A DNA stretch of 64,000 bases, taken from positions 1 to 64,000 of the forward strand of contig CAMWXJ010000003.1 in NCBI GenBank assembly GCA_947178215.1, written 5' to 3'. Source of the stretch: an uncultured Porphyromonadaceae bacterium. GTDB lineage: Bacteria > Bacteroidota > Bacteroidia > Bacteroidales > Muribaculaceae. Position 1 is the stretch's first letter; each line of letters opens with the position of its first letter. The notes beneath the pieces were generated by a model. The model was not told where the DNA came from and made no database searches. It saw nothing but the letters and a program-made list of their open reading frames with translations. Below are positions 13,065 through 51,220 of this stretch, one piece after another. The position numbers were made by a program, and so were the translations under genes.

Positions 13065-13080
13065 TGTACGGAATCGTACA
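13065..13080. promoter_or_regulatory. perfect dyad upstream of exporter locus 1 (putative regulator site)
   Basis: TGTACGGAATCGTACA: half-sites TGTACG and CGTACA around GAAT. The same 14 bases TGTACGGAATCGTA occur at 42300-42313 upstream of the paralogous exporter locus 2. The dyad centre is about 79 bp upstream of the predicted transcription start. The probable ligand is the Fis-type HTH regulator encoded at 17679, or its paralogue at 48612. That is inferred from the near-identical recognition helices of the two regulators. Confidence 0.6.
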
Positions 13081-13116
13081 TTTTCGCCTTCATAACATAT
13101 TGATTATCAAACACAG

Positions 13117-13147
13117 TTGACTCGACACAGAAAATATCATAGTTTTG
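13117..13147 (+). promoter_or_regulatory. housekeeping-type promoter of exporter locus 1
   Basis: TTG (13117-13119), a 20-bp spacer and TAGTTTTG (13140-13147) fit the Bacteroidota -33/-7 consensus. The ATG begins only 4 bases after the -7 box, so the transcript would be leaderless or nearly so. No GG-N10-GC sigma-54 element is found here. Confidence 0.6.
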
Positions 13148-13151
13148 CAAC

Positions 13152-14405
13152 ATGGACAGACAGATTTCTCTTAAAGAGCAAAGACTCGCCACGCTGCGCA
13201 AAGCCGCCCCCTACATAATCGGAGCCGCGGTAGTGATTGTGGGCGTAGTGATAGCCATGACGTCGATAAGCCCGTCGGTAAACATAAGCGACCTGCGCTT
13301 CTCCGAGGTGCAGACGGGCAATCTCACCGTAGCCATTCCGGCCACAGGCAGGGTGGTGCCGCTCAGCGAGCAGATACTCACCTCGCCTGTGTCGTCGCGC
13401 ATAGTAAAGGTCTACCGTCAGCCGGGCGACAGCGTCACCGCCGGCGAACCCCTCATCGAGCTCGACCTCGAAAGCGTGCGCACCGAATACGAAAAGATGC
13501 TCAATGACCAACAGATCAAGCGCGAGTCGCTGCGGCAGCTGGAACTCAACAGCAGCACCGGCCTCAACGAGCTCGAACTCCAGATTCAAGTCAAGGAAAT
13601 GGAGCTCAAGCAGCTTGCAATAGAGGTGGACAACGAACGGCGCCTCGACAGTCTCGGTTCAGGCACAGGCGACCGCGTGCGCCAGGCCGAGTCGGCTCGC
13701 CTCACCGCTTCGCTCGAACTGAACCATATGCGTCAGCGCCTCGCCAACGAACGACTCCGCACCGAGGCAGCACATCGCATCGAGACTCTCGGCGTGGAAA
13801 GCTTCGACAAGGATATACGCCTGATGGAGCGCACGCTCACCGAAGGACGCATACCCGCCCCCTACTCCGGTATCCTAACATATATCAACACCGAGATAGG
13901 CCGCAACGTGAGCGCCGGAGAAAAGCTTGCCGTGGTGGCCGACCTCACCCGCTACCGTATCGAGGGAGAGATCGCTGAGCTGTCGGCTTCACGCATCAAT
14001 GCTGGCTCCGACGTGAGCATACGCATCGGAAGCACCGAACTCGAAGGCACCCTAACCAACATCAACCCTCAGGCACAGGGCGGATCCATATCCATAGTGG
14101 TGATGCCATCCAACCCCTCCGACCCACATCTCCGCTCGGGACGCCGAGTTGACCTCGACATCAACGAGGGCTTCAAAGACGGCGCCCTGATGATGGCCAA
14201 CGGTGTCTATTATAAAGGTGCCGGCGAATACGAGCTGTTTGTACTCGAAGACGACAACTCTCTCAAAAAGCGTAAGGTACGCCTCGGCGACAGCAACCGC
14301 CGAATGGTTGAGGTCCTTTCAGGCCTCGCTCCGGGCGACAAAATAGTAGTGAGCGACATGTCTAACTACGACGACCGCAACACACTCACAATCCGTGAAA
14401 ACTGA
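13152..14405 (+). CDS. HlyD/MacA-type periplasmic adaptor (exporter locus 1)
   Basis: A membrane-fusion protein of 417 residues that should link an inner-membrane ABC exporter to an outer-membrane channel. One N-terminal membrane anchor lies at about 18-37. A lipoyl-like half (RIVKVYRQPGDSVTAGEPLIELD, about 83-105) is followed by a long charged helical hairpin (about 110-220) and the second lipoyl-like half (GRIPAPYSGILTYINTEIGRNVSAGEKL). Beta-barrel regions follow to the end. It is the first gene of the unit with the ATPase 27 bases downstream. It is a clear paralogue of the protein at 42471: both start MDR(Q/E)IS and share ERRLDSLGSGTGD / EQRLDSLGSGTGD. Confidence 0.9.
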   Translation: MDRQISLKEQRLATLRKAAPYIIGAAVVIVGVVIAMTSISPSVNISDLRFSEVQTGNLTVAIPATGRVVPLSEQILTSPVSSRIVKVYRQPGDSVTAGEPLIELDLESVRTEYEKMLNDQQIKRESLRQLELNSSTGLNELELQIQVKEMELKQLAIEVDNERRLDSLGSGTGDRVRQAESARLTASLELNHMRQRLANERLRTEAAHRIETLGVESFDKDIRLMERTLTEGRIPAPYSGILTYINTEIGRNVSAGEKLAVVADLTRYRIEGEIAELSASRINAGSDVSIRIGSTELEGTLTNINPQAQGGSISIVVMPSNPSDPHLRSGRRVDLDINEGFKDGALMMANGVYYKGAGEYELFVLEDDNSLKKRKVRLGDSNRRMVEVLSGLAPGDKIVVSDMSNYDDRNTLTIREN

Positions 14406-14432
14406 AATCCGTAATTCTTCATACACCGCATC

Positions 14433-15104
14433 ATGCCTATAATCAAAATCAGCAGCGTAGGCAAAGTCTACCGCACGAAAGAAATCGAGACCACAGCGCT
14501 CGAAAATGTCAACCTCACCGTAGAACAGGGCGAGTTCGTGAGCATCATGGGCCCCTCGGGCTGCGGCAAGTCCACGCTTCTCAACATCATCGGCCTCCTC
14601 GACAAACCCACATCGGGCAAGGTAGAACTAATGGACACCGATTGCAGTAGCCTCGGCGACACTGCAATAGCAGCATTCCGCAACGCCAATCTCGGCTTTG
14701 TGTTCCAGAGCTTCCATCTTATCCCTACCCTAAACGTGTATGCCAACGTAGAAATGCCCCTCACCTACCGCAGCATGGGACACTCCGAACGCTCCCGCCG
14801 CGTACACGAGACACTCGAACACCTCGGAATGAGCCACCGCATACGTCACTATCCGACACAACTCTCAGGCGGCCAGTGCCAGCGAGTGGCCATAGCCCGC
14901 GCCATTGTTGGGCGACCCTCGATAATCCTCGCCGACGAGCCCACCGGCAACCTTGACTCCACCATGGGCGAAGAGGTTATGAACCTCCTCCACAAGCTCA
15001 ACAAAGAGGACGGACACACAATAGTAATGGTGACACACAATGAGGCTCAGGCGCGCAAGACCGACCGAATAATCCGCTTCTTCGACGGCCGTATCATCTC
15101 TTAA
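14433..15104 (+). CDS. ABC transporter ATPase, MacB/LolD type (exporter locus 1)
   Basis: A 223-residue nucleotide-binding subunit. Walker [10 protein letters not shown] is at about 40-48, the Q-loop is [13 protein letters not shown], the ABC signature [14 protein letters not shown] lies near 143, Walker B is [13 protein letters not shown] and the H-loop is MVTHN. These features place it in the MacB/LolD/FtsE group, which powers mechanotransmission or extrusion rather than uptake. It lies between the adaptor gene and the first permease gene (15 bases downstream) and should energise the two permeases. It is closely similar to the ATPase at 43775; the first 50 residues differ at only a few places. 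Confidence 0.94.
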
Positions 15105-15119: not shown

Positions 15120-16394
15120 ATGAAAACCAAGATAATCCAGATTTACCGCGACCTGCGGAGCCAGCCGGTGATAGCGTGGGTCACTTTGCTTGGCACCACT
15201 CTCTCGATGTTCCTGTTCATGACAGTGCTGATGGGAGAGCAGATAAAATATGTGCCGTTTCCGCCCGAGGGCAACCGCGGACGCCTTGTCTACGGCATGA
15301 ACTACGAACTCAACGCGCCCGACTATTCAATGTCAAGTTATCTCGGCTTCGAACAGGCACGGCTGTTTTACGACAATCTCCAAGGCGTAGAGAAGCAGGC
15401 ATGGCTCGAACAGAACACCTCGCCCGGCTTTGCCGGCTCCGACCGCACATCCGCAATTGACGCCGAAAGCCGCCGCGTCGACAGCAACTACTGGAAGCTG
15501 TTCAATCACACACTTGTCGACGGACGCCTGTTTAACGAAAACGAGACACAGTCGGCGAGCAATTCGGTGGTACTCACCGAGAGCCTCGCCCGGAAGCTGT
15601 TTGGCACCGCCAAGGCCGCCGGTATGACATTTACCTACAACCTCGAACCGCAGACGGTGGTAGGCGTAGTGAAAGACGTGTCGCCGCTCGCATCGATATG
15701 CTATGCGGAAGTGTATCTGCCGCTCAACCACGCCGACACCCTGCTGAGCAAAAACTGCGGAATCATGGTGGCGATGTTGCCCGAGCAGGGCACCGGCATC
15801 GAAGCACTGCGCGCTCAGGTCGAAGGCCGCTATGCCACTGAAAACACCCGCCTCCTCCCCGACAGCACCCGATACGTGTACCACGGCCAACCTTACGATC
15901 ACGAGCAATATAGCTCCGATACTATTTGGTCCAACACCACTCCCGACACCAGAGAAGCCCGTCGCAAGCAGCTCCTGACCTACATCATACTGCTGCTTGT
16001 ACCTGCTATCAACCTCAGCAGCATGCTCAACAGCCGTCTGCGTCAGCGTGTGGGCGAGTTCGGCATCCGCCGCGCCTACGGCTGCACACGAGGCCGCATC
16101 ATCACCGACGTGCTGTGGGAAAACTTGTTAGTGACCCTTGCGGGAGGCATCATCGGCATTATCCTCGCCATAATGGTGGCAGTGCTCAACCCCGACATCG
16201 TACTGTCGAGCAAAGGCATTTTCTCGCCCGTATATTCCGAATACCACATCTCGGCAGGAATGCTTCTCAACTGGCGCATGATAGGGATGGCTTTCCTCGC
16301 TTGCCTAATACTCAACATCATTAGCGCGTCGGTGCCCGCATGGAGGGCTTCGCGCGTATCACCAATCGACGCCATCTCGGCATGTAACGCCTGA
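15120..16394 (+). CDS. FtsX/MacB-type ABC permease A (exporter locus 1)
   Basis: A 424-residue inner-membrane permease. An N-terminal membrane helix (about 18-40, VIAWVTLLGTTLSMFLFMTVLM) precedes a ~250-residue periplasmic MacB_PCD-like domain with NNxxWK-type features (DSNYWKLFNHTLVDGRLF). Three C-terminal helices follow, with the FtsX signature LLLVPAINLSSMLNSRLRQRVGEFGIRRAYGCTRG across about 284-324. Its paralogue is the protein at 44498, which has the matching VPAINLSAMTQSRLKQR motif. It likely forms a heterodimer with the next permease, because both loci keep two different permease genes in the same order. Confidence 0.88.
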   Translation: MKTKIIQIYRDLRSQPVIAWVTLLGTTLSMFLFMTVLMGEQIKYVPFPPEGNRGRLVYGMNYELNAPDYSMSSYLGFEQARLFYDNLQGVEKQAWLEQNTSPGFAGSDRTSAIDAESRRVDSNYWKLFNHTLVDGRLFNENETQSASNSVVLTESLARKLFGTAKAAGMTFTYNLEPQTVVGVVKDVSPLASICYAEVYLPLNHADTLLSKNCGIMVAMLPEQGTGIEALRAQVEGRYATENTRLLPDSTRYVYHGQPYDHEQYSSDTIWSNTTPDTREARRKQLLTYIILLLVPAINLSSMLNSRLRQRVGEFGIRRAYGCTRGRIITDVLWENLLVTLAGGIIGIILAIMVAVLNPDIVLSSKGIFSPVYSEYHISAGMLLNWRMIGMAFLACLILNIISASVPAWRASRVSPIDAISACNA

Positions 16395-16399: not shown

Positions 16400-17623
16400 A
16401 TGAAACGACACTTATTCTCACAAATGGCCACGGAGTGGCGCAGCAACCTGTGGCTCTGCATCCAGCTCATCATTGTCGGGCTCGTGCTATGGTTCTTTTC
16501 ATGGCAGCTTGTCGATATCCGTGACACATACTCATCCGACAACGCTTTCGACTACCACAACGTATATTACGGAAGCATCAAGTACATCAACGAATCGTCG
16601 TCGGCCTTTGTGCAGCAACCCGAAGGACATACGGATGCCGACGACCTCAATCTTATAATCTCGACATTGCGCGCCAACCCGTATGTCGAGGAAGCCGGCT
16701 ATGGCATCAACGCCCTTCCCTACAATTTTACTTACTATGGAGGCGCCTGCATGCTACCAGGCGATACCGTGACGCCATATTATTCCTTCAACGCGCGCTG
16801 GATGACTCCCGAAATGCTTAGAGTGCTTAGAATCGAAGGTGTCGACGGCGAGTCGACCGAAGATCTCGTCAGGCTGCTCCAAAACCACAAAGTCATCATA
16901 TCACGCAACGAAAAGATCAAAGACATAAGCGAAAGCTACCGCGGCAAGGACGCGATACATACGGCCGACAGCTCGAATGTCTTGTCGATAGGCGCCATCA
17001 TCAAGCCTTTCCGCCGCAACGATTTCGAGCCTCAGAGAGCAGGCAACGTCATCATGCTGCTCGATTATCCCGCCAACGGATTCCCCTCGAACATCGCCAT
17101 GCGGGTCAAGGAGGGGGTCAGCCCTCAGCAGTTCCTTGAATCGCTCAAACCGTCGGACCTGCATGTCGGAAACGTGCTTGTCTACGACATCACATCGCTC
17201 GAAGCGACCCGCCGCTCGGCCCAGCATAGTTACTGGGACAAAGTACGCACAGCCGTTAGCGGCAGCGTCTTCCTCCTGGTGATTGTGTTTCTCGGATTCA
17301 TCGGCACGTTCTGGTTCCGTACCCGTCAGCGCCGCTCGGAGATAGCTATACGCAAAGTCAACGGCGCTACCGACGGCAACATATACCGCCGCCTCTTCTC
17401 CGAAGGTCTGACAATACTGCTTGTTGCGGCCATCATAGACCTGCCGCTGGCCTATCTCGCTATCGGCAAGCTGAACATCGGACAGGAATTGAACCGACAG
17501 ATGTGCTGGCCGTCGTTTGCCTTGTCGGTGCTGCTCATGGCTGTGATGATACTGGTAGGCGTGTGGTTCCCGGCGCGCAACGCCATGAAAATTCAGCCGT
17601 CCGACGCGCTCCACGATGAGTGA
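16400..17623 (+). CDS. FtsX/MacB-type ABC permease B (exporter locus 1)
   Basis: The second permease, 407 residues, starting 5 bases after permease A. It begins KRHLFSQMATEWRSNLWLCIQ, with TM1 at about 21-38. A periplasmic domain spans about 40-280, and three C-terminal helices carry FLGFIGTFWFRTRQRRSEIAIRKVNGATDG, the FtsX-type coupling-helix region. The protein ends PARNAMKIQPSDALHDE, the usual end of MacB-like permeases. It is paralogous to the protein at 45836 (same FLGLLGTFWFRTQQR motif and ARRAMKIKPAVALKDE end). The substrate of the exporter is unknown. Confidence 0.88.
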   Translation: MKRHLFSQMATEWRSNLWLCIQLIIVGLVLWFFSWQLVDIRDTYSSDNAFDYHNVYYGSIKYINESSSAFVQQPEGHTDADDLNLIISTLRANPYVEEAGYGINALPYNFTYYGGACMLPGDTVTPYYSFNARWMTPEMLRVLRIEGVDGESTEDLVRLLQNHKVIISRNEKIKDISESYRGKDAIHTADSSNVLSIGAIIKPFRRNDFEPQRAGNVIMLLDYPANGFPSNIAMRVKEGVSPQQFLESLKPSDLHVGNVLVYDITSLEATRRSAQHSYWDKVRTAVSGSVFLLVIVFLGFIGTFWFRTRQRRSEIAIRKVNGATDGNIYRRLFSEGLTILLVAAIIDLPLAYLAIGKLNIGQELNRQMCWPSFALSVLLMAVMILVGVWFPARNAMKIQPSDALHDE

Positions 17624-17640
17624 CCTTTGCCACGGCACAC

Positions 17641-17671
17641 TTGCTTCTGACCGTCAAAACACTTAACTTTG
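17641..17671 (+). promoter_or_regulatory. internal promoter before the locus 1 regulator gene
   Basis: TTG (17641-17643), 20-bp spacer, TAACTTTG (17664-17671): a full Bacteroidota consensus. The ATG at 17679 is 7 bases after the -7 box, giving a leader of only a few bases. Confidence 0.7.
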
Positions 17672-17678
17672 CACCACT

Positions 17679-18206
17679 ATGATACTGATTATCGACGACG
17701 ACCAGGCAGTAAGGATGAGCCTGTCGCTCCTCTTCAAGCAGGCCGGATTCGACAGCGAGGCGGTGGGCAACGCCGCCGACGCCATAGAGGTGGTGCGCAA
17801 CCGCGAGCCTCAGCTCGTGATGCTCGACATGAACCTGTCGCTCTCCACCACGGGGCGCGACGGCATAGAGCTGCTGCGCAAAATCAAGGTGTTCTGCCCC
17901 GACACGCCGGTGATACTCATCTCGGCCTGGGGCACAATAGCTCTCGCCGTGGAGGGTATGGCTCATGGAGCCGCCGATTTCGTCACCAAGCCGTGGAGCA
18001 ACCGCGACCTCATGGCAAAAGTCCGCAAGGTCATAGGAAGCAAAAACACGCCGGCTGCCCCACCCACCCTCGAAGAAATGGAGCGGCAGGCCATAATCGA
18101 CGCTCTGCGGCGCAACAACTACAACCAGTCGCTCGCGGCCGACGAGCTGGGCATCACCCGCCAGTCGCTCTACCGCCGCATTAGCAAATACGGTATTCCT
18201 GTATGA
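17679..18206 (+). CDS. response regulator with receiver and Fis-type HTH only (no AAA+ domain)
   Basis: A 175-residue regulator. The receiver (about 1-120) has IDDD, phospho-acceptor D50 in VMLDMN, a Ser in ISAWG and K104 in TKPW. After a short Pro/Ala linker it goes directly into a C-terminal HTH_8/Fis domain (about 131-175, DELGITRQSLYRRISKYGI). The paralogue at 48612 is 445 residues and has a complete sigma-54 AAA+ domain between the same two modules. Here that part is cleanly absent, giving an ActR/RegA-like architecture. It cannot activate sigma-54 polymerase, which agrees with the ordinary promoter of locus 1. It overlaps the kinase gene by ATGA. Confidence 0.93.
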   Translation: MILIIDDDQAVRMSLSLLFKQAGFDSEAVGNAADAIEVVRNREPQLVMLDMNLSLSTTGRDGIELLRKIKVFCPDTPVILISAWGTIALAVEGMAHGAADFVTKPWSNRDLMAKVRKVIGSKNTPAAPPTLEEMERQAIIDALRRNNYNQSLAADELGITRQSLYRRISKYGIPV

Positions 18207-19420
18207 TGCTCTACCGCTTCTCGCTGACCGCGCTCGCCGTGGCCCTCGCCGCAATCCTTGCCCTCGCCCTGCTCGACGGGCCAAAGATATGGATTGCCGT
18301 GGCGGGCGCGGCCGGCGCGGTGGCGTTCATCGTCACGGTGTGGGCCGTGGTAAAGCCGCTCAACGCCGTGCAAAACGGCATCTACCTGCTGCAATCGCAG
18401 GACTACAGCAGCCGCCTGCGTGCAGTGGGGCAGCCCGACGCCGACCGCATAGCCCGGTTTTTCAACCGGCTCATGCAGGCCCTCCACGACGAGCGTCTCA
18501 AAAATGAGGAGCGCAACAAATTCTTGCAGCAGCTCATCGACGCGTCGCCCATGGGCATAGCGATATGCGACTTCGACGGAGTGCCACAAAGCTCCAACAC
18601 CGCCTACCGCTCGTTCAGCTCCCCCGAACTCGATGCTGCGATAGCCGCATTGGCCGAGGAGGAGTCGGCCACGCTGCGCCTCGGCTCGTCGAGCGTGTTC
18701 CGCATCTCACGCCTGTGGTTTATGGACTGCGGATTCCGCCGACCGTTCATACTCGTGGAGCAACTCACCGACGAGATACGCCAGGCCGAGCGCGAACTTT
18801 ACAGCCGCATCGTGCGCACCATAGGCCACGAAACCAACAACACTCTGTCGAGCGTAATGTCGGTAATGGAGACGATAGGCATGATGCACGCCGACGACCG
18901 CGACATCACCGCCACACTCGCGAGCTGTCACGGCAGCTGCTCGGCGCTATCGCAGTTCGTGAGCCGCTACGCCGAGATTGTCAAGCTCCCCGCCCCCGAA
19001 AAGGAACCTGTCGACCTCAACGCCTTTGTCGAGGAGATGATGCCCATGCTCTCTCGCATGGCATCGGAAAAGATTGCCTTCACCGCCTCGCTCGACCCCG
19101 ATGCCGGCGTCATCGCCGCCGACAGGGCCATGTTGGAGCGCGTCATGGTCAACATAGTGCGCAACGCCATAGAGAGCATAGCAGGCCACGGCACCGTGGC
19201 CGTCGCCACCGCTCCGGGAAGCATCGCCGTGACCGACAGCGGAGCCGGCATCGACCCGGCGGCGGCAGGGCGACTCTTCACTCCGTTTTTCTCCACAAAG
19301 CCCTCCGGCCACGGCCTCGGACTTATGCTCGTGTCTGAAATACTCCACTCCCACAACGCCACTTTCAGCCTCCGCACCGACGACACCACCTCACTCACCA
19401 CATTCACTATCAATTTTTAA
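18203..19420 (+). CDS. membrane histidine kinase, NtrY/NtrB-like (locus 1)
   Basis: A 405-residue kinase translationally coupled to the regulator (ATGA at 18203-18206; a second ATG follows immediately at 18206). Two N-terminal membrane helices (about 8-24 and 30-50) enclose almost no periplasmic loop, so it may sense membrane state or a partner protein. A HAMP-like and a PAS-like segment (about 105-190) come next. The H-box is TIGHETNNTLSSVMSVM (His about 209). The N-box is NIVRNAIESIAGHG, and the G-boxes are TDSGAGIDPA and GHGLGLMLVSEIL. The HExNN-type H-box is shared with the paralogue at 49946. Confidence 0.9.
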   Translation: MMLYRFSLTALAVALAAILALALLDGPKIWIAVAGAAGAVAFIVTVWAVVKPLNAVQNGIYLLQSQDYSSRLRAVGQPDADRIARFFNRLMQALHDERLKNEERNKFLQQLIDASPMGIAICDFDGVPQSSNTAYRSFSSPELDAAIAALAEEESATLRLGSSSVFRISRLWFMDCGFRRPFILVEQLTDEIRQAERELYSRIVRTIGHETNNTLSSVMSVMETIGMMHADDRDITATLASCHGSCSALSQFVSRYAEIVKLPAPEKEPVDLNAFVEEMMPMLSRMASEKIAFTASLDPDAGVIAADRAMLERVMVNIVRNAIESIAGHGTVAVATAPGSIAVTDSGAGIDPAAAGRLFTPFFSTKPSGHGLGLMLVSEILHSHNATFSLRTDDTTSLTTFTINF

Positions 19421-20123: not shown

Positions 20124-22046
20124 TTACATAACATTAGGACCATCACCCCACTGAGGAGCACCTTCATCCTGCCATACACGCTCACGGTTGAGAGTAGCTC
20201 CGTCAACAGCGCCGGCTGTGAAGCCCTGAGTGCTGTAAGAAGCCTGGAGCTGATCCTTCATGAGGTCGGTGGGGCTGATTACGCCGAGCGACGAACGACG
20301 TCCGAACGCCGAAGCGGGGAAGTTGTTGGCCGAGTAATCGACGCGGGGGAGCAGAGTGGAGTTGAACGAGGGCACACCCGAGCGACGACCGGTCACGAAG
20401 AGATCCTTGGGGAAGTAGGAGAAGTTGATTTCCTGCTGGAGGAACACCTTCTCGAGGTCCTCGGCCTTGTTGCCGGTCAACTGATAGGCGGGGTGAGCAA
20501 GCATAGCCTCGATTTCGCCGTCCTTGAGAGCGATGGTAGCCTCATGCGGGTCGTAACCGTAAGTCTCACTGTAATAAGGAATCTGATTCTTTTCGGCGAG
20601 ATTGTCGTAAGCCTCGACAGAGAGGCGGATACCGCGCTGGAAGTAGGTGTTGGCGTCGCCGCTTACGGCACCGTAGAGGGCAAACTCGGCGAGATAGAGG
20701 TTGACCTCAGCCGAAGTCATGTACAGGCCGTACCAGGGACGGGGTTCGGTGCGGGTAACCACTACGTCGGATTCAGGCGCGGTGGGGAGAGTAAACGAGT
20801 AGCGGCCTTGGAGCATGTATTCGCTGTAACGCGACACGCCGCCGTAGCTCTTGTTGCCGGGGATTTCGCGCTGATAGTCGCCAAGATGGAAATACTGGCG
20901 GTAGTAGTCGGTCTGATCGCTGGGAGCGTTGTATTCGGTGGGGATACCGTAGTAGCGCACCCAAGGTTCGCCCTTGCCCTTCCAGGCCTTGAAAGTCTCT
21001 TTGCCGTCTACGATCTGGGTCTCTACATTGTCGAGCACATACCAGGGGAGGTCAGATTTACGATTGTTCTCGATAAACCAGCGCACAACCTCGGAGTTGA
21101 AGCTGTTCTTGGTGTAGAAGAAGCGCACGCGGGGGTCTTCATTCTCCAGCAGGAACTCCACGAGCTGCTTGGTGGGAGCCATGCCGCTGTAAGCCACGGT
21201 GGTGTTTGTGGTATTGTAGGCAATATCGCCGCGGTCGAGCTTTGAGCCGCTGCCGGTGGTGATAGTCTCGGTAGCCTTGTTGAACATCACGTCGTCGCTG
21301 AGCGAGTTCATGTAGCCGCAGGGAGCGGCCACCACCTGTTGGGCGATAGTCTTCGCACGATTGAAGTCGCGGTGGATAAGTCGGGCGGCAATTTTGAGCT
21401 TGAGCGAGTTGGCCCACTTGGCCCACTTCGACCAGTCGCTGCCAAACACGAGGTCGTTCTTGCTAAGACCTGTCTGGTTGGTGTTGTTCTGGAAACCGGC
21501 TATGGCGTTGTCGAGCCATTCGATCCAGAGAGTGTAGAGGTCCTCCACGCGGTCATACTTCGGAGTGAGAGTGCCGCCGAAGCGGGCCTGGGCGGCTTCG
21601 GTGAAGGGTATGTCGCCGGAGTCGTCGGAGTCGAAGATGCCGAGATACACAATCAGCACGTCGAGCGCAGCCTGAATGTTCTTATACTTGGAGGCTTCAT
21701 CCTCGCCCATGGCAGCAAGCTCGTTTTCGAGAGCGTACTTGTAGCCGAGAACGTTGATTACCTGGAAGCCCTGGCGGGGAGCGGTGGCTTCGAGCAGGTC
21801 CTGCGTAACACCGCCGGTAGTGATGGACAGGCCGGTCTGCACGGCGGCGCGGTGTGCAAACGAGAACCATATGCCGTAGCTGCAAGGCTGCCACTCATAG
21901 ATGGCCTGGGTGAAGAGCTGTTGGGGAGAAGCTACGGAAATCGACGAGGGGTCCTGATTTATCTCGGTGAACTCGTCGCGACAGCTTGTCGCGGAGAATA
22001 CGAGTCCGCCGGCCATAGCCGCTGCCAGATATTTATAGAGTTTCAT
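20124..22046 (-). CDS. SusD/RagB-family outer-membrane lipoprotein (SusD_2 type)
   Basis: A 640-residue cell-surface substrate-binding lipoprotein that pairs with the TonB-dependent transporter encoded 21 bases upstream. The N-terminus is a lipoprotein signal ending FSATSC, with mature start CRDEFTEINQDPSSI. The motif (EINxDP) is typical of SusD-like_2 proteins. Tetratricopeptide-like helices follow, and the C-terminal part contains GRRSGVPSFNSTLLPRVDY, a common SusD-family feature. No polysaccharide-degrading enzyme, sensor or sigma factor lies next to the pair, so its ligand (glycan, peptide or other) cannot be told. Confidence 0.92.
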   Translation of the reverse strand: MKLYKYLAAAMAGGLVFSATSCRDEFTEINQDPSSISVASPQQLFTQAIYEWQPCSYGIWFSFAHRAAVQTGLSITTGGVTQDLLEATAPRQGFQVINVLGYKYALENELAAMGEDEASKYKNIQAALDVLIVYLGIFDSDDSGDIPFTEAAQARFGGTLTPKYDRVEDLYTLWIEWLDNAIAGFQNNTNQTGLSKNDLVFGSDWSKWAKWANSLKLKIAARLIHRDFNRAKTIAQQVVAAPCGYMNSLSDDVMFNKATETITTGSGSKLDRGDIAYNTTNTTVAYSGMAPTKQLVEFLLENEDPRVRFFYTKNSFNSEVVRWFIENNRKSDLPWYVLDNVETQIVDGKETFKAWKGKGEPWVRYYGIPTEYNAPSDQTDYYRQYFHLGDYQREIPGNKSYGGVSRYSEYMLQGRYSFTLPTAPESDVVVTRTEPRPWYGLYMTSAEVNLYLAEFALYGAVSGDANTYFQRGIRLSVEAYDNLAEKNQIPYYSETYGYDPHEATIALKDGEIEAMLAHPAYQLTGNKAEDLEKVFLQQEINFSYFPKDLFVTGRRSGVPSFNSTLLPRVDYSANNFPASAFGRRSSLGVISPTDLMKDQLQASYSTQGFTAGAVDGATLNRERVWQDEGAPQWGDGPNVM

Positions 22047-22067
22047 GATGGATATGCGACTTAAAGA

Positions 22068-42299: not shown

Positions 42300-42333
42300 T
42301 GTACGGAATCGTAAAAGCGTCCGTTTTCGTACA
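42300..42333. promoter_or_regulatory. two dyads upstream of exporter locus 2 (putative activator sites)
   Basis: Site one is TGTACG-GAAT-CGTAAA (42300-42315). Site two is CGTCCG-TTTT-CGTACA (42318-42333). Their centres are 18 bp apart and lie about 97 and 79 bp before the predicted sigma-54 transcription start. The first 14 bases are identical to the perfect dyad at 13065 before locus 1. They are good candidates for enhancer sites of the NtrC-type regulator encoded at 48612. Confidence 0.6.
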
Positions 42334-42377
42334 TCCGCCTGAATTGCTAATCCGATGATTACCAACGATTGGCACGA

Positions 42378-42394
42378 TTGGCACGACATTTGCA
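42378..42394 (+). promoter_or_regulatory. sigma-54 promoter of exporter locus 2
   Basis: TTGGCACG-ACAT-TTGCA matches the sigma-54 consensus, with GG at 42380-42381 and GC at 42392-42393 separated by exactly ten bases. A second partial -24 copy (TTGGCACG at 42369-42376) lacks a matching -12. The predicted start is near 42405, about 66 bases before the first gene. A gene for a GAFTGA-bearing activator lies in the same locus. Confidence 0.85.
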
Positions 42395-43774: not shown

Positions 43775-44449
43775 ATGGCAATAATCAACATAAAAGACCT
43801 GACCAAGATTTATCGCACCAACGAGATTGAGACCGTAGCTCTCGAAAATGTCAATATAAGCATCGAGAAAGGCGAATTTGTAAGCATCATGGGCCCGTCG
43901 GGTTGCGGCAAGTCGACGTTGCTCAACATAATCGGCCTGCTCGACGCCCCCACCGAAGGCTCGGTAGAAATCGACGGACGCACCACCAACGGCATGAGCG
44001 ACTCCGCTCTTGCCGAGTTCCGCAACCGCTACCTCGGATTCGTATTCCAGAGCTTCCACCTCATACCGTCGCTCAACGTAATCGACAACGTGGAGATACC
44101 GCTCATCTACCGCAAAGGCGTGAGCGACAAGGAGCGCACCGCCCGCGCCCGCGAGGTGCTCGAGCGCATGGAGCTGCCCCACCGCATGCGCCACATGCCC
44201 TCGCAGCTCTCGGGCGGACAGTGCCAGCGCGTGGCCATAGCACGTGCCATTGTGGGCAAGCCCGAAATAATCCTTGCCGACGAACCCACCGGCAACCTTG
44301 ACTCGAAGATGGGCGCCGAAGTGATGGACATACTCCACCGACTCAACAAGGAGGACGGCTGCACCATCGTCATGGTAACCCACAACGAGCCCCAGGCCAA
44401 GCAGACCGACCGCATAATCCGCTTCCTCGACGGCCGCCAGGTCCAGTAA
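43775..44449 (+). CDS. ABC transporter ATPase, MacB/LolD type (exporter locus 2)
   Basis: A 224-residue ATPase. Walker [10 protein letters not shown] (about 40-48), Q-loop [13 protein letters not shown], signature [17 protein letters not shown], Walker [17 protein letters not shown] and H-loop [21 protein letters not shown] are all intact. It drives the permease pair encoded just downstream, 48 bases away. It is very similar to the ATPase at 14433, which supports a duplication of the whole locus. Confidence 0.94.
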
Positions 44450-44497: not shown

Positions 44498-45787
44498 ATG
44501 AAACTCACTACCATATTCCGCTCCACGTGGTTTCAGATGCGCCATCAGCCGGTGCTGAGCATCGTCACCATAGCGGGCACAGCCCTATCCATCTTCCTCA
44601 TCATGATCGTGGTGATGATGCAGGAGGTGACCACCGCCCCCTTCGCCCCTGAAAGCAACCGCTACCGCTTACTTTACTACTCCTTCCTCTCTTCCTCCTA
44701 TGAGGACGGAGACGGCGAATGCAACGGCCCCATGGCCTATACCACGGCGCGACAGATGCTTCTCTCGCTCCAGACACCCGAAGCGGCAACCGCCTATCAG
44801 GGAATCGTCACATCGGCTGCCCTGTCTATTCCCAAAAGCCCGAATGTAAAGGTGGATATGCGCCCCGTCGACAACAACTACTGGAAGGTGTTTGACTTCA
44901 CCTTCATCGACGGCGCTCCATTCACACAGGCCGACTTCGACGCCGGACTCCCCAAGATAGTCATCACCGAGAGTATCGCACGCAAGGTGTTCGGCACTAC
45001 CGAAGTCGCCGGCCGCGAGATTCTCGTCAACCTCGCTCCGTTCACGGTGTCGGGCGTGGTGAAAGATGTGTCTACTCTCGCCGCCAAAGCCTACGCCCAG
45101 GCATGGACCAACCTCTCGGCCACCAACACCTTTGAACAGAGCTGGAACACGATACATGGAATGTTGAGCGTTGCGATTCTGGCCAATAGCCGCGACGACT
45201 TCGACAAGATACGCGAAGAATACGAGAAAGCGCATGACAAATACGAGGACGAGATAAAGTCGACCGGCAGGAAAATCAAGTCACTCAGCCGTCCGTATGA
45301 CCAAGAGACCGAAGCGATAGCATTTGCCTCCAACATCGAGCCCGACCTTCCCGGCGAACGCCGCAGCCGACTGATAGTGTATCTGATACTCCTCATCGTG
45401 CCCGCCATCAACCTCAGCGCCATGACGCAGAGCCGCCTGAAGCAGCGCACGGCCGAGATAGGTGTCCGCCGCTCGTTCGGCTGCACCCGCAGCCGCATTA
45501 TCCTCGACATCATCACCGAAAACCTTGCCATCACCGTCATAGCCGGCATCATCGGACTCATACTGAGTGTGATATTCGGCTATCTCTGCAACAACCTGCT
45601 GTTCGCGCAGCCCTTCTCGCAGACCATGAACGCTCCAGCAGTCGACAGTTCGATTCTGCTCCACTGGTCGACATTCGGCTGGGCCATGATCTTCTGCTTC
45701 ATTCTCAACATTCTCAGCAGCGGCCTGCCTGCTATCAACGCATCACGCACCGGTCTGGTCAACGCTCTCAACGGCCGTGCCAACTGA
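44498..45787 (+). CDS. FtsX/MacB-type ABC permease A (exporter locus 2)
   Basis: A 429-residue permease with TM1 at about 19-42 (VLSIVTIAGTALSIFLIMIVVMM) and a periplasmic MacB_PCD-like domain (NNYWKVFDFTFIDGAPFTQADF). The C-terminal three-helix FtsX domain reads YLILLIVPAINLSAMTQSRL and then VRRSFGCTRSRI. It is the orthologous position to the gene at 15120, with the same order and motifs. It most likely works as a heterodimer with permease B. The cargo is unknown. Confidence 0.88.
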   Translation: MKLTTIFRSTWFQMRHQPVLSIVTIAGTALSIFLIMIVVMMQEVTTAPFAPESNRYRLLYYSFLSSSYEDGDGECNGPMAYTTARQMLLSLQTPEAATAYQGIVTSAALSIPKSPNVKVDMRPVDNNYWKVFDFTFIDGAPFTQADFDAGLPKIVITESIARKVFGTTEVAGREILVNLAPFTVSGVVKDVSTLAAKAYAQAWTNLSATNTFEQSWNTIHGMLSVAILANSRDDFDKIREEYEKAHDKYEDEIKSTGRKIKSLSRPYDQETEAIAFASNIEPDLPGERRSRLIVYLILLIVPAINLSAMTQSRLKQRTAEIGVRRSFGCTRSRIILDIITENLAITVIAGIIGLILSVIFGYLCNNLLFAQPFSQTMNAPAVDSSILLHWSTFGWAMIFCFILNILSSGLPAINASRTGLVNALNGRAN

Positions 45788-45835: not shown

Positions 45836-47086
45836 ATGAATAAAAAACTCTTCACCCAGATAAAGAACGAATGGCGCACCAACCTGTGGCTCATCATCGA
45901 GCTGCTGGTGGTAAGCGTGGTGCTCTGGTATATCGTCGACTTCTTCTATACCAAAATCTCTGTCCGCACCCTGCCGCGCGGATTCAACACCGAGCACTGC
46001 TACCGCATCGACTTCAACTATGTCAACATCAAGAGCCCCGAATTCAATCCCGACATCAACGACTCGATCAATGCCGTACACATGCGCGAGCTCCTCGACC
46101 GCATCAGTCGCCGACCCGAGGTAGAAGCTGCAAGCTTGTCACAGAATTCCTATCCCTACAATGGCTCAAACAGCGGCATTTGGGTTTACTATGCCGATGA
46201 CCGCGACACACTCCAGAACGATGGCTACGTCGTACGCCGCTGGGTGACACCCGACTTCGTAAGGGTGTTCCGTTACACCGGCGCGGCCGGCGAGACCTCC
46301 GAGCAACTGGCTGAGATGCTCAAGGAGAACAAGATTCTTATAAACAACGACCTGTTCATGTACAGAGGCGTAGAGCTGAAGGACTATGCCGGCAAGAAAT
46401 TCGCGCTTGATGACACGACCATGATACATACACTCGGCGCCGCCATCACGACTCCCCGCTACAGCGACTATCAGACATGGGGCAGCACCGTCCTGATAAA
46501 TGTACTCAATGACCGGCAGGTTGGATGGTGCGGAGAACTGTGTATCCGCGTAAAGCCCGACATGGACCACGATGTGATCGAGAACATAATGAAAGACGCT
46601 CCATCGCAATACCGCATAGGCAACCTTATGGTGACCGACGTGGTGTCGTTTGACGACATCCGCGACAACTTCCAGCGCCTGTGGTCAAACCAGGAGCGCA
46701 ACTATTACGCCGGCATGGGCTTCCTGCTCTTCAACATCTTCCTCGGGCTGCTCGGCACCTTCTGGTTCCGCACCCAGCAGCGCGTGAGCGAGATTGCCAT
46801 ACGCAAGGCCAACGGCGCCACATCCACCGACATATTCAGGCGCCTAATCTCCGAGGGTCTGCTGCTTCTGGTGGTCGCCACCATCCCTGCCACACTTATC
46901 GACATCGGCCTGTCATGGTATGGTTACAACCAGTGGTTTGATGACGGATACATGGGCTGGGTACGCACTCCCGCAACCATTCTCATCTCTTTCGCGCTCA
47001 TGGCCCTGATGATTGTGCTCGGCATACTCATCCCTGCACGCCGAGCCATGAAAATAAAACCCGCCGTAGCACTCAAAGACGAATAA
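45836..47086 (+). CDS. FtsX/MacB-type ABC permease B (exporter locus 2)
   Basis: A 416-residue permease starting KKLFTQIKNEWRTNLWLIIE, with TM1 at about 20-40. A periplasmic domain spans about 45-285. The C-terminal helices carry FNIFLGLLGTFWFRTQQRVSEIAIRKANGATST, and the protein ends PARRAMKIKPAVALKDE. It pairs with permease A and is paralogous to the gene at 16400. The outer-membrane channel gene begins two bases after its stop codon. Confidence 0.88.
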   Translation: MNKKLFTQIKNEWRTNLWLIIELLVVSVVLWYIVDFFYTKISVRTLPRGFNTEHCYRIDFNYVNIKSPEFNPDINDSINAVHMRELLDRISRRPEVEAASLSQNSYPYNGSNSGIWVYYADDRDTLQNDGYVVRRWVTPDFVRVFRYTGAAGETSEQLAEMLKENKILINNDLFMYRGVELKDYAGKKFALDDTTMIHTLGAAITTPRYSDYQTWGSTVLINVLNDRQVGWCGELCIRVKPDMDHDVIENIMKDAPSQYRIGNLMVTDVVSFDDIRDNFQRLWSNQERNYYAGMGFLLFNIFLGLLGTFWFRTQQRVSEIAIRKANGATSTDIFRRLISEGLLLLVVATIPATLIDIGLSWYGYNQWFDDGYMGWVRTPATILISFALMALMIVLGILIPARRAMKIKPAVALKDE

Positions 47087-47088: not shown

Positions 47089-48567
47089 ATGATGAAGTGT
47101 TCAAGAGTGATTGTCACCGTCGCCGCACTCGCCGCGACGCTTGCCGCCGGCGCCGAGACCATAACCATAACGCTCGACGACGCCATAGCCCGCGCACGCG
47201 TGCAGAGCGTCAACGCCGCCGTGGCGCTCAACGAGCTGCGCACCGCCTATTGGGAGTTCCGCACCTACAAGGCCGAGCTGCTCCCCGAAATCAATTTTAA
47301 TTCCAAAATTCCCGGCTACTACAAGCGCTACTCCACTTATCAGGAATCCGATGGCTCTTACAGCTTCGTGCGCAACAACTATCTGCAGATGACAGGCGAG
47401 CTTTCGGTCGACCAGAAGATATGGGCTACGGGCGGCACACTGTCGCTCAACACCTCGCTTGACTTCATGCGCCAGCTCGACGGCGTAAAGCAGAACCGTT
47501 TCATGTCGATACCGGTGGCCCTGACGCTCAGTCAGCCTATCTTCGGCGTCAACACCGTGAAGTGGGACCGCCGTATCGAGCCGGTGAGATATGCCGAGTC
47601 GAAAGCCGCGTTCCTCACCGCCACCGAGGAGGTGGCGATGACGGCTGTGCAGCATTTTTTCAACCTCCTCATGGCACGCGAGAGCCTTGATATAGCCCGC
47701 CAGAACCTCGACAACGCCACCCGGCTCTATGAGGTTGCCAAGGTGAAGCGCGAAATGGGCCAGATAAGCCAGAACGACCTGCTGCAAATGGAGCTCAACC
47801 TGCTCAACGCCACAGCCGAATACACCGACTGCGAGAGCTCGCTCAAAAGCAATATGTATCAGCTCCGCTCGTTTCTCAACTACGACGAGACGGTCGACCT
47901 GCAACCGGTGGTGCCCTCCACGGTGCCGGTAATAGACGTGGTATACGCCGACGCGCTCGAACGCGCCCTCGCCAATAACATGTTCGCCAAAAACATACGC
48001 CGCCGTCAGCTTGAAGCCGACTACGAAGTAGCCAAGGCCAAGGGCAACATGCGCGAGATATCGCTCTACGCCCAGGTGGGCTACACAGGCACCGACCGCA
48101 TATTCGGACATGCCTACGACGACCTGCGGAGCAATCAGGTGGTGGAGGTAGGCGTTAAGATACCGCTCCTCGACTGGGGTAAGCGCCGCGGCGCCGTAAA
48201 GGTGGCCGAGAGCAACCGCGAGGTGGTGGAGAGCCGTCTGCGACAAGAGACGCTCAACTTCAACCAGGACCTCTTTATCCTCGTGGAGCGTTTCAACAAT
48301 CAGCGCAGGCAGCTCAACATAGCCAACAAGGCCGACGAGATTGCGCAGCGCCGCTACAACACCAACGTCGAGACTTTTCTCATAGGCAAAATCTCGACTC
48401 TCGACCTCAACGACTCGCAGACCAAGAAAGACGAATCCCGCAAGCAGTATGTCAGCGAACTCTTCTACTACTGGTACTACTTCTATCAGCTCAGGAGCGT
48501 GACACTCTGGGACTACGAGCGCGCCACCGGCATCGATGCCGACATAGAGCGCATGGTGCGTGACTGA
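47089..48567 (+). CDS. TolC-family outer-membrane efflux protein (exporter locus 2)
   Basis: A 492-residue outer-membrane channel. A signal peptide covers about 1-20 (VTVAALAATLAAGAE). Two TolC/OEP repeats follow, the first with ITLDDAIARARVQSVNAAVALNELRTAYWEFRTYKAELLPEI and the second with GVKIPLLDWGKRRGAVKVAESNREVVESRLRQETLNF. Long helical stretches form the periplasmic tunnel. It completes a tripartite exporter with the adaptor and the ABC core. Locus 1 has no counterpart, so locus 1 may share this channel or use another. Confidence 0.9.
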   Translation: MMKCSRVIVTVAALAATLAAGAETITITLDDAIARARVQSVNAAVALNELRTAYWEFRTYKAELLPEINFNSKIPGYYKRYSTYQESDGSYSFVRNNYLQMTGELSVDQKIWATGGTLSLNTSLDFMRQLDGVKQNRFMSIPVALTLSQPIFGVNTVKWDRRIEPVRYAESKAAFLTATEEVAMTAVQHFFNLLMARESLDIARQNLDNATRLYEVAKVKREMGQISQNDLLQMELNLLNATAEYTDCESSLKSNMYQLRSFLNYDETVDLQPVVPSTVPVIDVVYADALERALANNMFAKNIRRRQLEADYEVAKAKGNMREISLYAQVGYTGTDRIFGHAYDDLRSNQVVEVGVKIPLLDWGKRRGAVKVAESNREVVESRLRQETLNFNQDLFILVERFNNQRRQLNIANKADEIAQRRYNTNVETFLIGKISTLDLNDSQTKKDESRKQYVSELFYYWYYFYQLRSVTLWDYERATGIDADIERMVRD

Positions 48568-48599: not shown

Positions 48600-48607
48600 T
48601 ATATTTG
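48600..48607 (+). promoter_or_regulatory. -7 box before the locus 2 regulator gene
   Basis: TATATTTG, a TAnnTTTG element ending 4 bases before the ATG at 48612, so the transcript would be close to leaderless. No TTG is found at the -33 position. Confidence 0.45.
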
Positions 48608-48611
48608 CTTC

Positions 48612-49949
48612 ATGATACTAATTGTTGACGATGATAAGGTGATACGCCTCTCGCTGAGCATGCTGCTCAAACGAGCGGGGTATGAGACTCTCACCGCTTC
48701 CGACGCCGCCGAGGCGCTCGAAGCGGTGAGGCGTCATCCGTTCAGGCTCATTGTTATGGATATGAATTACTCGCGCAACACTTCGGGCGAGGAGGGGCTT
48801 GAACTTTTGCGAAAGGTGAAGATTTTTCAGCCCGAAGTGCCTGTGATACTCATCACCGCCTGGGGCAGCATACCTCTTGCCGTGGAGGGAATGAAAGCGG
48901 GCGCGTTTGATTTCATCACCAAGCCGTGGAACAATTATTTCCTGCTTCAACGCATAGAGACTGCGCTTAAACTGTCGGAAGCGCCTCTTCCAAGCGACGA
49001 ACGCGATGCCGACGACTTCGACCGCGCCGGCATCATAGGTGAGAGCGAGGGGCTTATGAGGGTGCTCGACACAGTGAAGCGCGTGGCCAAGACCGACGCG
49101 CCGATACTCGTTACCGGCGAGACCGGCACCGGCAAGGAGCTGATAGCCCGCGCCGTCCACGTCAACAGCCGTCGCTGCGGCGGCCCGCTCGTCACGGTCA
49201 ATCTCGGAGGCATATCGCAGTCGTTGTTTGAAAGCGAGATGTTTGGCCACGCCAAGGGCGCTTTCACAGGCGCCACAGGCAGCCGCAAAGGCCGCTTCGA
49301 GCTTGCCGACACCGGCACGATATTCCTCGACGAGATAGGCGACCTCGACATGAGCTGTCAGGTGAAGCTGCTGCGCGTGCTCCAGCAGCACACGTTCGAG
49401 GCGCTAGGCGACAGCACTCCCCGCAAGACCGACATACGCGTGGTGTGCGCCACCAACGCCGACCTCCCCGCCATGGTGTCACAACGGCGTTTCCGCGAGG
49501 ACCTGCTCTACCGCATCAACCTCATCACCCTCCACCTGCCCCCGCTGCGCGAACGCCGTGAGGATATTCCGCTGCTCGTACGCCATTTCGCATCCATGTC
49601 GGGGCGCCGCGACGCAGAATTCTCAAGCGACGCCATGACGCTGCTCACCCGCCTCCCCTATTACGGCAACATACGCGAGCTCAAAAACATAGTGGAGCGC
49701 ACGATACTGGTGTCGGCAAGCGACATCATCACCGCCGCCGACGTGGAGCGCAACCTGCCGCAAATCACAGTGCCCGACACCGTGCAGACCACACCGATGA
49801 CGGGAATGACCCTCGAAGACATGGAGCGGGCCGCCATACAGCAAGCCCTCGTCGCCACGGGAGGCAACCTTACGCAGATGGCATCCAAACTCGGCATAAC
49901 GCGCCAGTCGCTCTATCGCCGCATGGAAAAATACGGAATCAAGCCATGA
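48612..49949 (+). CDS. NtrC-family sigma-54-dependent response regulator
   Basis: A 445-residue activator. The receiver domain (1-120) has IVDDD, phospho-acceptor D50 in IVMDMN and the Lys in ITKPW. The AAA+ domain (about 140-370) has Walker A GETGTGKE (169-176), the sigma-54 contact loop GAFTGA (216-221), Walker B FLDE (238-241) and the R-finger region FREDLLYRINL. The C-terminal Fis-type HTH is SKLGITRQSLYRRMEKYGI. It is expected to bind upstream dyads and open the sigma-54 promoter at 42378. The gene overlaps the kinase gene by ATGA. Confidence 0.95.
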   Translation: MILIVDDDKVIRLSLSMLLKRAGYETLTASDAAEALEAVRRHPFRLIVMDMNYSRNTSGEEGLELLRKVKIFQPEVPVILITAWGSIPLAVEGMKAGAFDFITKPWNNYFLLQRIETALKLSEAPLPSDERDADDFDRAGIIGESEGLMRVLDTVKRVAKTDAPILVTGETGTGKELIARAVHVNSRRCGGPLVTVNLGGISQSLFESEMFGHAKGAFTGATGSRKGRFELADTGTIFLDEIGDLDMSCQVKLLRVLQQHTFEALGDSTPRKTDIRVVCATNADLPAMVSQRRFREDLLYRINLITLHLPPLRERREDIPLLVRHFASMSGRRDAEFSSDAMTLLTRLPYYGNIRELKNIVERTILVSASDIITAADVERNLPQITVPDTVQTTPMTGMTLEDMERAAIQQALVATGGNLTQMASKLGITRQSLYRRMEKYGIKP

Positions 49950-51220
49950 AGTTCAAGATAGTGTTCTACATACTCGCCGGGGTGCTCATAGCAATGTTGC
50001 TGTTCACACTTGTGATGCGGCCTCCGGTAATGTGGGCGTATGTCACGGGCGAACTGCTTGCGCTCGTCATCACCTTAGTGATGTATTTCGCGCTCGTGCG
50101 CCCGGTAAGTTCGATACTGCTCGGAATGGATCTCATAAAGGGGCACGACTTCGGCAGCCGTCTCGCCAAGGTAGGACAGCTCGACGCCGAAAAGCTCATC
50201 GACCTCTTCAACACCATGATGACCAACATAAAGAACGAGCGCGTGTACCGCCAGGAGCAGAATTACTTCATGGAACAGCTAATCGACGCCTCACCTATCG
50301 GCATCATAATGCTCGACCTCGAAGGCAAAGTGTCGCAGACCAACCAGGCCGCGGTGAAGATGCTCGGCCTTGGCTCATACGACGAGATGAAATACCGCGC
50401 ACCCGAAGCTATCGACTCGCCCCTCGCCCGGAGCCTGTCGCAGCTCGCCGACGGCGAATCGCGCACTGTGCGTCTTGCCGACACCATTATATACCGCTGT
50501 TCAAGCCTGTCGTTTATCGACACGGGACTCCCCCGCCGCTTCTATCTCATCGAGAGCCTTACCGACGAGGTAATGGAGGCCGAGAAGCAGGCCTACGAGA
50601 AGGTGATACGCATGATAGCCCACGAGGTCAACAACACGGTGACGGGAGTCAGCTCGCTGCTCGAAGCCGCCGCGGCGGTGTTCGAAGCCACCGACGAAGA
50701 GCTGTTTGAGGCACTGTCGAGCTGCCGCGAACGCATCGAGGGGCTGAGCGCATTCATCACATCGTATGCCAACCTCGTCAAGATTCCGCCGCTCCAGCTC
50801 GAAGCGGTCGACATCAACGAGCAACTTATGCTCAATATGCCTTTTCTCGAAAGTATCGGCGCGCCGCGCGGCGTGAAGCTCACGGCACACCTCAGCGACA
50901 AACCGGTGCCCGCGGCAATCGACCGCGTGCTCATGGAACAAGTGATTGTCAACGTGGTGAAGAACGCCGTGGAGAGCATAGGACACGACGGCGAGGTGAT
51001 TATTTCCACTACCCCCACGGCCCTTACCGTCACCGACAACGGCGCGGGCATCTCGCCCGAGGTTGCAAGCCATATCTTCTCGCCGTTCTACTCCACCAAG
51101 CCCGACGGCCAAGGCCTTGGACTGATGTTTGTCAACGAGGTACTCCGCCGCCACGGCTTCCGCTTCTCCCTCGCCACCGACCCCGCCGACGGCCTCACAC
51201 GCTTCACCATACGGTTCTGA
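49946..51220 (+). CDS. membrane histidine kinase, NtrY/NtrB-like (locus 2)
   Basis: A 424-residue kinase, coupled to the regulator by ATGA (49946-49949). Two membrane helices (about 5-24 and 30-50) have almost no loop between them, and HAMP-like and PAS-like segments follow (about 55-200). The H-box is MIAHEVNNTVTGVSSLL (His about 226), the N-box NVVKNAVESIGHDG, and the G-boxes TDNGAGISPEVASHIFSPFYSTKPDGQGLGL. It is the paralogue of the kinase at 18203; the two share the IDASP(M/I)GI block in the PAS-like region. The signal is unknown. Confidence 0.9.
   Translation: MKFKIVFYILAGVLIAMLLFTLVMRPPVMWAYVTGELLALVITLVMYFALVRPVSSILLGMDLIKGHDFGSRLAKVGQLDAEKLIDLFNTMMTNIKNERVYRQEQNYFMEQLIDASPIGIIMLDLEGKVSQTNQAAVKMLGLGSYDEMKYRAPEAIDSPLARSLSQLADGESRTVRLADTIIYRCSSLSFIDTGLPRRFYLIESLTDEVMEAEKQAYEKVIRMIAHEVNNTVTGVSSLLEAAAAVFEATDEELFEALSSCRERIEGLSAFITSYANLVKIPPLQLEAVDINEQLMLNMPFLESIGAPRGVKLTAHLSDKPVPAAIDRVLMEQVIVNVVKNAVESIGHDGEVIISTTPTALTVTDNGAGISPEVASHIFSPFYSTKPDGQGLGLMFVNEVLRRHGFRFSLATDPADGLTRFTIRF

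Follow-up and report, generated by a model that had tools for sequence, protein, structure and literature searches.

Likely departure of a tripartite exporter operon from sigma-54 control through loss of a regulator domain and exchange of the core promoter next to a retained operator

We analyzed a 64-kb stretch (the window; positions 1 to 64,000 of contig CAMWXJ010000003.1) of the 2.55-Mb assembly GCA_947178215.1 from an uncultured Muribaculaceae bacterium, which carries two related operons for tripartite exporters, hereafter locus 1 and locus 2. We propose, and consider likely, that an ancestral sigma-54 exporter operon lost the AAA domain of its regulator and acquired a sigma-A promoter while keeping its operator, and that the resulting receiver-Fis regulator activates the housekeeping polymerase. 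In the ancestral form, represented by locus 2, a phosphorylated NtrC-type regulator would bind to the palindrome TGTmCGnnnnCGkACA, some 80 bp before the start, and its AAA ATPase would open the complex formed by the sigma-54 polymerase. The AAA domain would then have been lost in a single ancestor, that of a clade whose members are now dispersed through the host family, leaving the receiver joined to the same Fis domain; the core promoter would have become a housekeeping sigma-A promoter (TTGAC-N17..19-TAnnTTTG), and the operator would have kept its distance of about 80 bp from the new start. Locus 1 belongs to this AAA-less clade, and its regulator would most likely act on the sigma-A polymerase itself, in the manner of a conventional activator. 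The regulator architecture, the single origin and nesting of the AAA-less loci, the promoter class, the operator, and its spacing are all read from sequence; phosphorylation, binding, the sign of regulation, and the start sites are what we infer in addition.

The regulatory features of the two loci are the following (window positions).

13065 to 13080, no strand assigned: operator palindrome TGTACGGAATCGTACA of locus 1, centre at -79.5 from the predicted start
13101 to 13109, plus strand: TGATTATCA element between operator and promoter, locus 1
13117 to 13147, plus strand: predicted sigma-A (Bacteroidota) promoter TTGAC-N18-TAGTTTTG of locus 1, predicted start 13152, the A of the ATG
17679 to 18206, plus strand: response regulator of locus 1, receiver and Fis helix-turn-helix without AAA (Pfam)
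42300 to 42315, no strand assigned: distal operator of locus 2, one mismatch, centre at -97.5 (computed from the coordinates)
42318 to 42333, no strand assigned: proximal operator of locus 2, one mismatch, centre at -79.5 (computed from the coordinates)
42379 to 42393, plus strand: predicted sigma-54 -24/-12 promoter TGGCACGACATTTGC of locus 2, predicted start 42405
48612 to 49949, plus strand: NtrC-type regulator of locus 2, receiver, AAA (GAFTGA), and Fis

The initial annotation had assigned a sigma-54 promoter and a full NtrC-type activator to locus 2, and an ordinary Bacteroidota promoter and a regulator without the ATPase to locus 1, and both assignments were borne out. The locus 2 regulator has the receiver-AAA-Fis layout, with the GAFTGA loop and a strong match to the sigma-54 interaction domain (PF00158, E value 2.3e-66), and an exact -24/-12 site precedes its operon. 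The locus 1 regulator, of 175 amino acids (aa), consists of a receiver and HTH_8 only, without the AAA domain of an NtrC-type activator. The Fis helix GITRQSLYRR is common to both, which fits a common binding site; some AAA-type relatives carry other Fis helices. As a side observation, the sigma-54 contact loop reads GAFTDA, not GAFTGA, in AAA regulators outside the host family (e.g., L117, L124 to L126, L128, L129, and L132 to L137) and also in some AAA loci within it.

At locus 2, positions 42379 to 42393 hold the sole exact TGGCAC-N5-TTGC of the window, where the same pattern with up to two mismatches occurs at chance level (59 found versus 66 expected). No -24/-12 promoter was found at locus 1, the best site having three mismatches and lying 124 nucleotides before the ATG, upstream of the operator. 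There, positions 13117 to 13154 read TTGAC-N18-TAGTTTTG-CAAC-ATG, which has the form of a Bacteroidota sigma-A promoter (TAnnTTTG at -7 and an upstream -33 element) and is the sole match of TTGAC-N16..20-TAnnTTTG-N4-ATG in the assembly. According to a passage of PMC9723704, the TAnnTTTG box of Flavobacterium spans -12 to -5, so that the start of locus 1 is predicted at the A of the ATG, i.e., the transcript would be leaderless. Judging from the same box, transcription of locus 1 and of most scored AAA-less relatives (19/28) probably begins at the AUG itself. Only a small fraction of mRNAs is leaderless in this phylum, excerpts of two studies giving 5.5% leaderless mRNAs in Flavobacterium psychrophilum (PMC9723704) and about 3.7% of 5' untranslated regions below 10 nucleotides in Bacteroides thetaiotaomicron (PMC7366714); the AAA-less operons would supply a group of probable leaderless cases.

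Both loci share an operator, at a shared distance. The locus 1 palindrome starts at position 13065, where the initial annotation also began its description, and the first 14 bases of this palindrome, TGTACGGAATCGTA, occur twice in the assembly, at 13065 and 42300, once upstream of each locus, and nowhere else in the assembly even with one mismatch allowed. Across relatives, the operator is the 16-bp palindrome TGTmCGnnnnCGkACA, called with at most one mismatch. It was found upstream of 9/9 AAA-less loci of the first set, 52 of the 60 host-family AAA-type loci (recounted from a set of 63 that had included L032, L036, and L037, on named Porphyromonas-type contigs), all three of the latter, and nine of the 28 loci that come from other families in the order. 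Downstream of start codons (52.5 + 365.6 + 164.5 kb, ~583 kb), there were no exact operators and two one-mismatch copies. The full operator occurs exactly once in the assembly, at locus 1. Further regulon members outside both loci were sought, and we claim none, the assembly having 15 places with at most one mismatch versus 22 in the reversed control, i.e., no enrichment.

The operator is centred at -79.5 or -80.5 in all nine first-set AAA-less loci. A sigma-54 site with at most two mismatches precedes 57/60 host-family AAA-type loci, and in 43 of these 57 the nearest operator lies at -77.5 to -80.5; in the remaining loci it is absent at the one-mismatch threshold (seven) or elsewhere (seven: three near -98 to -103, three near -90, and one downstream). 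On these predictions, the core promoter has been exchanged with operator spacing kept, and it is the consistent difference between the two types. Some 50 bp before the start there is a TGATTwTCA element, strong in the AAA-less type and weaker in the AAA type. Elements of this kind stand between operator and promoter in both types, at 13101 to 13109 (TGATTATCA), at 42356 to 42364 (TGATTACCA), and in relatives; they are possibly sites for a bending protein, and the one at 13101 to 13109 may be IHF-like.

The link between promoter class and regulator type was put to a prediction written before 60 new loci were fetched from genomes not examined earlier. A sigma-54 site was scored with at most two mismatches and a sigma-A promoter with at most one mismatch and a spacer of 18 to 21 (18 to 20 had been noted beforehand); the operator windows were 1 bp wider on each side than noted beforehand, and counts for the noted windows are given as well. 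The prediction largely held. Among the 19 AAA-less loci, a sigma-54 site was found in one and a sigma-A promoter in 16, the predicted leader was 0 in 13, and the operator lay at -78 to -82 in 18, 15 of them within the noted -79 to -81. All 23 AAA loci had a sigma-54 site and none had a sigma-A promoter; for 17 of them the operator was at -77 to -81, 16 of these also falling in the noted window of -78 to -80, for five it was near -98, and for one it was absent. As cross-controls, the operator fell in the sigma-54 window for 5/19 AAA-less loci and in the sigma-A window for 2/23 AAA loci. In the 18 held-out loci whose regulator could not be read, 14 had a sigma-54 site, three a sigma-A promoter, and one neither. 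Since the AAA-less loci form one clade, these counts show the conservation of one event.

To read the direction of the change, we used a concatenated 50-locus tree whose outgroup was the same system in other families. The AAA-less loci form one clade (support 100) nested inside the AAA loci (98 and 99), and forcing the 31 AAA ingroup rows into one clade was rejected (P = 2.7e-46). In a 160-row adaptor tree (FastTree; adaptor rows below 330 aa excluded), 27 AAA-less rows and four rows without a readable regulator form one clade at 100 that contains no AAA member. Outside the host family, 17 loci have receiver and AAA in one frame and none is AAA-less, L127 being cut off, L138 split over two frames, and the others lacking a regulator in the fetched stretch. 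For these counts, L033, L034, and L035 were treated as duplicates of L053, L068, and L061; L146 to L156 were excluded as other exporters; L103, L105, and L107 were dropped for want of a usable start; and L063 was classed as AAA-less by its adaptor only. Together, the nesting of the AAA-less clade within AAA/sigma-54 loci in the concatenated tree and the promoter class that tracks regulator type in the held-out loci argue for the departure from sigma-54 control that had been suggested at the outset. Genera are intermixed in the AAA-less clade (e.g., L071 with L079, and locus 1 with L214, its sister from another genus in the 160-row tree), which suggests transfer between genera.

Several points weigh against this reading. 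The nesting rests on the concatenated tree, obtained with a short ("quick") search. In an adaptor-only tree with a very distant outgroup, the AAA loci as one clade were not rejected (P = 0.855); being inconclusive on direction with so far an outgroup, this tree was set aside for the concatenated one with its nearer outgroup. A receiver-only tree also places the AAA-less regulators together (99/98), with modest support for their exact placement. The match between promoter and regulator is a single evolutionary co-occurrence, and Fisher P values ignore the shared descent. The operator, with up to one mismatch allowed, is missing in 8/60 host-family AAA-type loci and in 19/28 loci of other families, and the held-out operator counts drop in the windows noted beforehand. 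The equality at -79.5 in both classes hinges on the box-to-start distance assumed for each promoter. Three held-out AAA-less loci miss the scored sigma-A pattern: L189, which fits with a 17-bp spacer on inspection, and L174 and L176, which have a weak -33 box (TTGGA for TTGAC). Finally, a sigma-54-like match with two mismatches occurs in 4/9 first-set AAA-less loci (L063, L066, L073, and L079), above the rate in shuffled upstream regions, where a site of such quality was found in 56/1,380; the one held-out case among 19 is L179. All five sites lie upstream of or over the operator, and none between operator and gene.

The alternative that survives best, which we nevertheless regard as unlikely, accepts that locus 1 lies outside sigma-54 control and makes its AAA-less regulator a repressor or a competitor for the operator, the sigma-A promoter being active by default. 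Fis-type regulators can also repress, and one operator is common to both loci, as such a role would have it. However, the operator at about -80 is clear of the promoter and almost constant in spacing across genera (9/9 first-set and 18/19 held-out loci), which argues for activation over repression. The genomic distribution speaks in the same sense. Within a sample of 148 genomes of the host family, to which the rpoN census was confined (the genomes of the held-out loci lying outside it), 78 have an adaptor match (E value up to 1e-20) and nine have an AAA-less type by regulator or adaptor. Four of the nine have a second core-type locus as well (G000, G003, G073, and G133), and five have no second adaptor match (G008, G037, G058, G083, and G097). 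These five hold no AAA exporter regulator to compete with, and each has rpoN and exactly one strong PF00158 match, which suggests that the AAA-less regulator acts without an AAA paralogue; G097 is 89% complete, so that a gene could be missing there. Loss of rpoN was considered as the cause of the switch and is excluded for the sample, rpoN being present in 147/148 genomes, including all nine with an AAA-less locus; in the five with an AAA-less locus alone, it was thus not the driver. In the host assembly itself, there is a single match for rpoN, and sigma-54 activators give two strong ones.

If activation by a derived regulator is preferred, the origin of that regulator has still to be weighed. 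It is very unlikely that it was recruited from another receiver-Fis regulator and not made by loss of the AAA domain. AAA-less regulators of this layout do exist elsewhere in the host genome, next to L108 and L110, but the AAA-less receiver groups with the locus 2 type, apart from these two (100/96), and its Fis helix, GITRQ[SA]LYRR, is as in locus 2 and several relatives, whereas the helices of L108 and L110 differ. Equally improbable, in our estimate, is that locus 1 is a decaying copy that lost the AAA domain and TolC by degeneration and keeps the operator as a relic. Locus 1 is indeed the only one of 27 AAA-less loci with a readable regulator that lacks TolC, a tolC gene occupying the corresponding position in the other 26. 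However, all six of its genes are open frames with domains and with the usual motifs visible by eye, and loci of several genera have preserved the AAA-less regulator together with the operator and its spacing. An ancestral AAA-less regulator, with the AAA form and the sigma-54 promoter gained later, is the least credible of all, since the basal position allowed by the adaptor-only tree and the other receiver-Fis regulators adjoining related exporters face rejection by the concatenated tree and the 17-to-0 distribution outside the host family.

The two loci are homologous operons with the order adaptor, ATPase, permease, permease, (TolC), regulator, kinase, confirmed by Pfam together with the domains. 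Their remaining parts are the following, the source being Pfam unless another basis is named.

13152 to 14405, plus strand: locus 1 periplasmic adaptor, HlyD/RND_mfp type
14433 to 15104, plus strand: locus 1 ABC ATPase
15120 to 16394, plus strand: locus 1 permease A, MacB_PCD and FtsX
16400 to 17623, plus strand: locus 1 permease B, FtsX
17624 to 17678, plus strand: 55-bp gap of locus 1 at the usual place of tolC, TolC absent (coordinates)
18203 to 19420, plus strand: locus 1 histidine kinase
42471 to 43718, plus strand: locus 2 periplasmic adaptor
43775 to 44449, plus strand: locus 2 ABC ATPase, best NCBIfam model DarD (below cut-off)
44498 to 45787, plus strand: locus 2 permease A, MacB-like
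45836 to 47086, plus strand: locus 2 permease B, FtsX
47089 to 48567, plus strand: locus 2 TolC-family outer membrane channel
49946 to 51220, plus strand: locus 2 histidine kinase, PAS and HATPase

Identities between the loci are 44% (adaptor), 69% (ATPase), 37% (permease A), 36% (permease B), and 41% (kinase); in the regulator pair, 62/118 receiver and 26/45 Fis positions are identical. All gene pairs score far above shuffled sequences (z of 76 to 164), in keeping with the gene order and homologous pairs described initially. From this likeness a whole-locus duplication with sister loci had been judged likely, and the trees called for to check it have now been run. Here the earlier reading fails: the two loci are not sister groups, locus 1 being closer to AAA-less loci of other genera (sisterhood rejected, approximately unbiased test, P = 8.2e-6). 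A recent whole-locus duplication in the host genome is excluded by the same test, and locus 1 and locus 2 are, as judged from the tree, old paralogues or xenologues. The proposed departure from sigma-54 control is unaffected, because it needs no recent duplication. The initial annotation is therefore supported as to the exit and contradicted as to the sister duplication, and it had overlooked the shared operator, its spacing, the probable leaderless promoter, and the absence of TolC specific to locus 1.

Sigma-54 promoters require an ATP-driven activator. A move to another sigma factor should thus require the regulator and the promoter both to change, and to do so in coordination. The locus pair would show such a move in nature, away from sigma-54 control, and since both states are extant among relatives, in some cases within a single genome, and agree in operator and in its predicted distance, the route is directly testable. 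Cross-talk between the two pumps is also predicted. The locus 2 regulator resembles NtrC-family activators such as AtoC, ZraR, and NtrC (receiver, AAA with GAFTGA, and Fis; upstream operator; -24/-12 promoter), from which locus 1 departs in having neither the AAA domain nor a sigma-54 promoter. RegA/PrrA/ActR response regulators combine a receiver with a Fis-type helix-turn-helix, have no AAA domain, and act at housekeeping promoters. By domain layout the locus 1 regulator is of this kind (RegA was outside the receiver tree); it differs in deriving, on our proposal, from the exporter's own NtrC-type regulator.

Two parts of the scheme were already known. Predicted sigma-54 promoters have been reported for ABC/FtsX-permease exporters in Bacteroidia (PMC12316311), the same exporter class, the passages concerned not describing loss of this control or AAA-less regulators. 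Similarly, passages of PMC10274813 report NtrC-type regulators active at sigma-70 promoters (NtrC of Rhodobacter capsulatus and of Caulobacter, and Vibrio VspR). As presented there, these lack the GAFTGA loop inside the AAA domain, whereas in the locus 1 type the entire domain is gone; moreover, in the exporter loci the operator spacing can be traced across the putative promoter exchange. Our searches of the open-access PubMed Central (PMC) library brought up no report of an AAA-less branch in which an apparent promoter exchange is traceable with operator and spacing kept.

A broader hypothesis, possible in our view and on balance doubtful, is that excision of the AAA domain is a repeatable way out of sigma-54 control. 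The receiver-Fis remnant at about -80 would suffice for the housekeeping polymerase, so that operator, spacing, and signal input would survive; where both loci are present, the AAA-less regulator would compete at the sigma-54 locus, interlocking the two pumps. Hints of repetition come from another, distant exporter family of these bacteria. Its 18 readable regulators comprise 12 with AAA, five without, and one (L244) with a decayed AAA lacking GAFTGA; the TolC-like gene beside the L244 regulator is preceded by TAATTTTG-TGAC-ATG. On the best receiver tree, two changes are needed for the AAA-less label, and none of 200 bootstrap trees has one change only; the strongly supported branches alone are compatible with a single AAA-less origin. 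Sigma-54 sites lie near only some operon starts of its AAA members, and the promoter link is not established in this family. No TAnnTTTG was found before the scanned genes at L108, L110, L246, L249, and L250, the scanned gene perhaps not being the first of its operon. Among the four adaptor matches of the host genome (E value up to 1e-20), three have an AAA-less regulator beside them (locus 1, L108, and L110) and one an AAA regulator (locus 2). L108 (contig 9 of G000) and L110 (contig 17) are exporters of the distant Dar-like family in the same genome, with receiver-Fis regulators without AAA.

As to the pumps themselves, the domains of both operons predict export pumps of the MacAB-TolC kind, and each operon includes a two-component system of its own. 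They share with MacAB-TolC the adaptor, the MacB-like permease, the ATPase, and TolC; they differ from it in having a separate ATPase and two different permeases in place of the fused ATPase-permease MacB. Locus 1 presumably relies on a channel encoded elsewhere, that of locus 2 or a different one. Among NCBIfam equivalogs, DarD and DarC of the darobactin exporter DarBCD score highest for the ATPase and the adaptor of locus 2, respectively, with scores below cut-off (261.7 of 375 bits and 71.8 of 450 bits). NCBIfam and Protein Data Bank (PDB) sequence searches for the cargo yielded family-level relatives only, and we can only guess that it is an envelope-active peptide or a similar stressor. 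The permeases form a single pair in each of the 27 AAA-less loci whose regulator could be read. In 30/79 loci with an AAA regulator, and also in L032, L037, L119, and L122, one ATPase and one adaptor are accompanied by at least two permease A/B pairs in tandem. Downstream of locus 1, a pair of genes for a SusD-like protein and a TonB-dependent receptor lies on the minus strand at 20124 to 25460.

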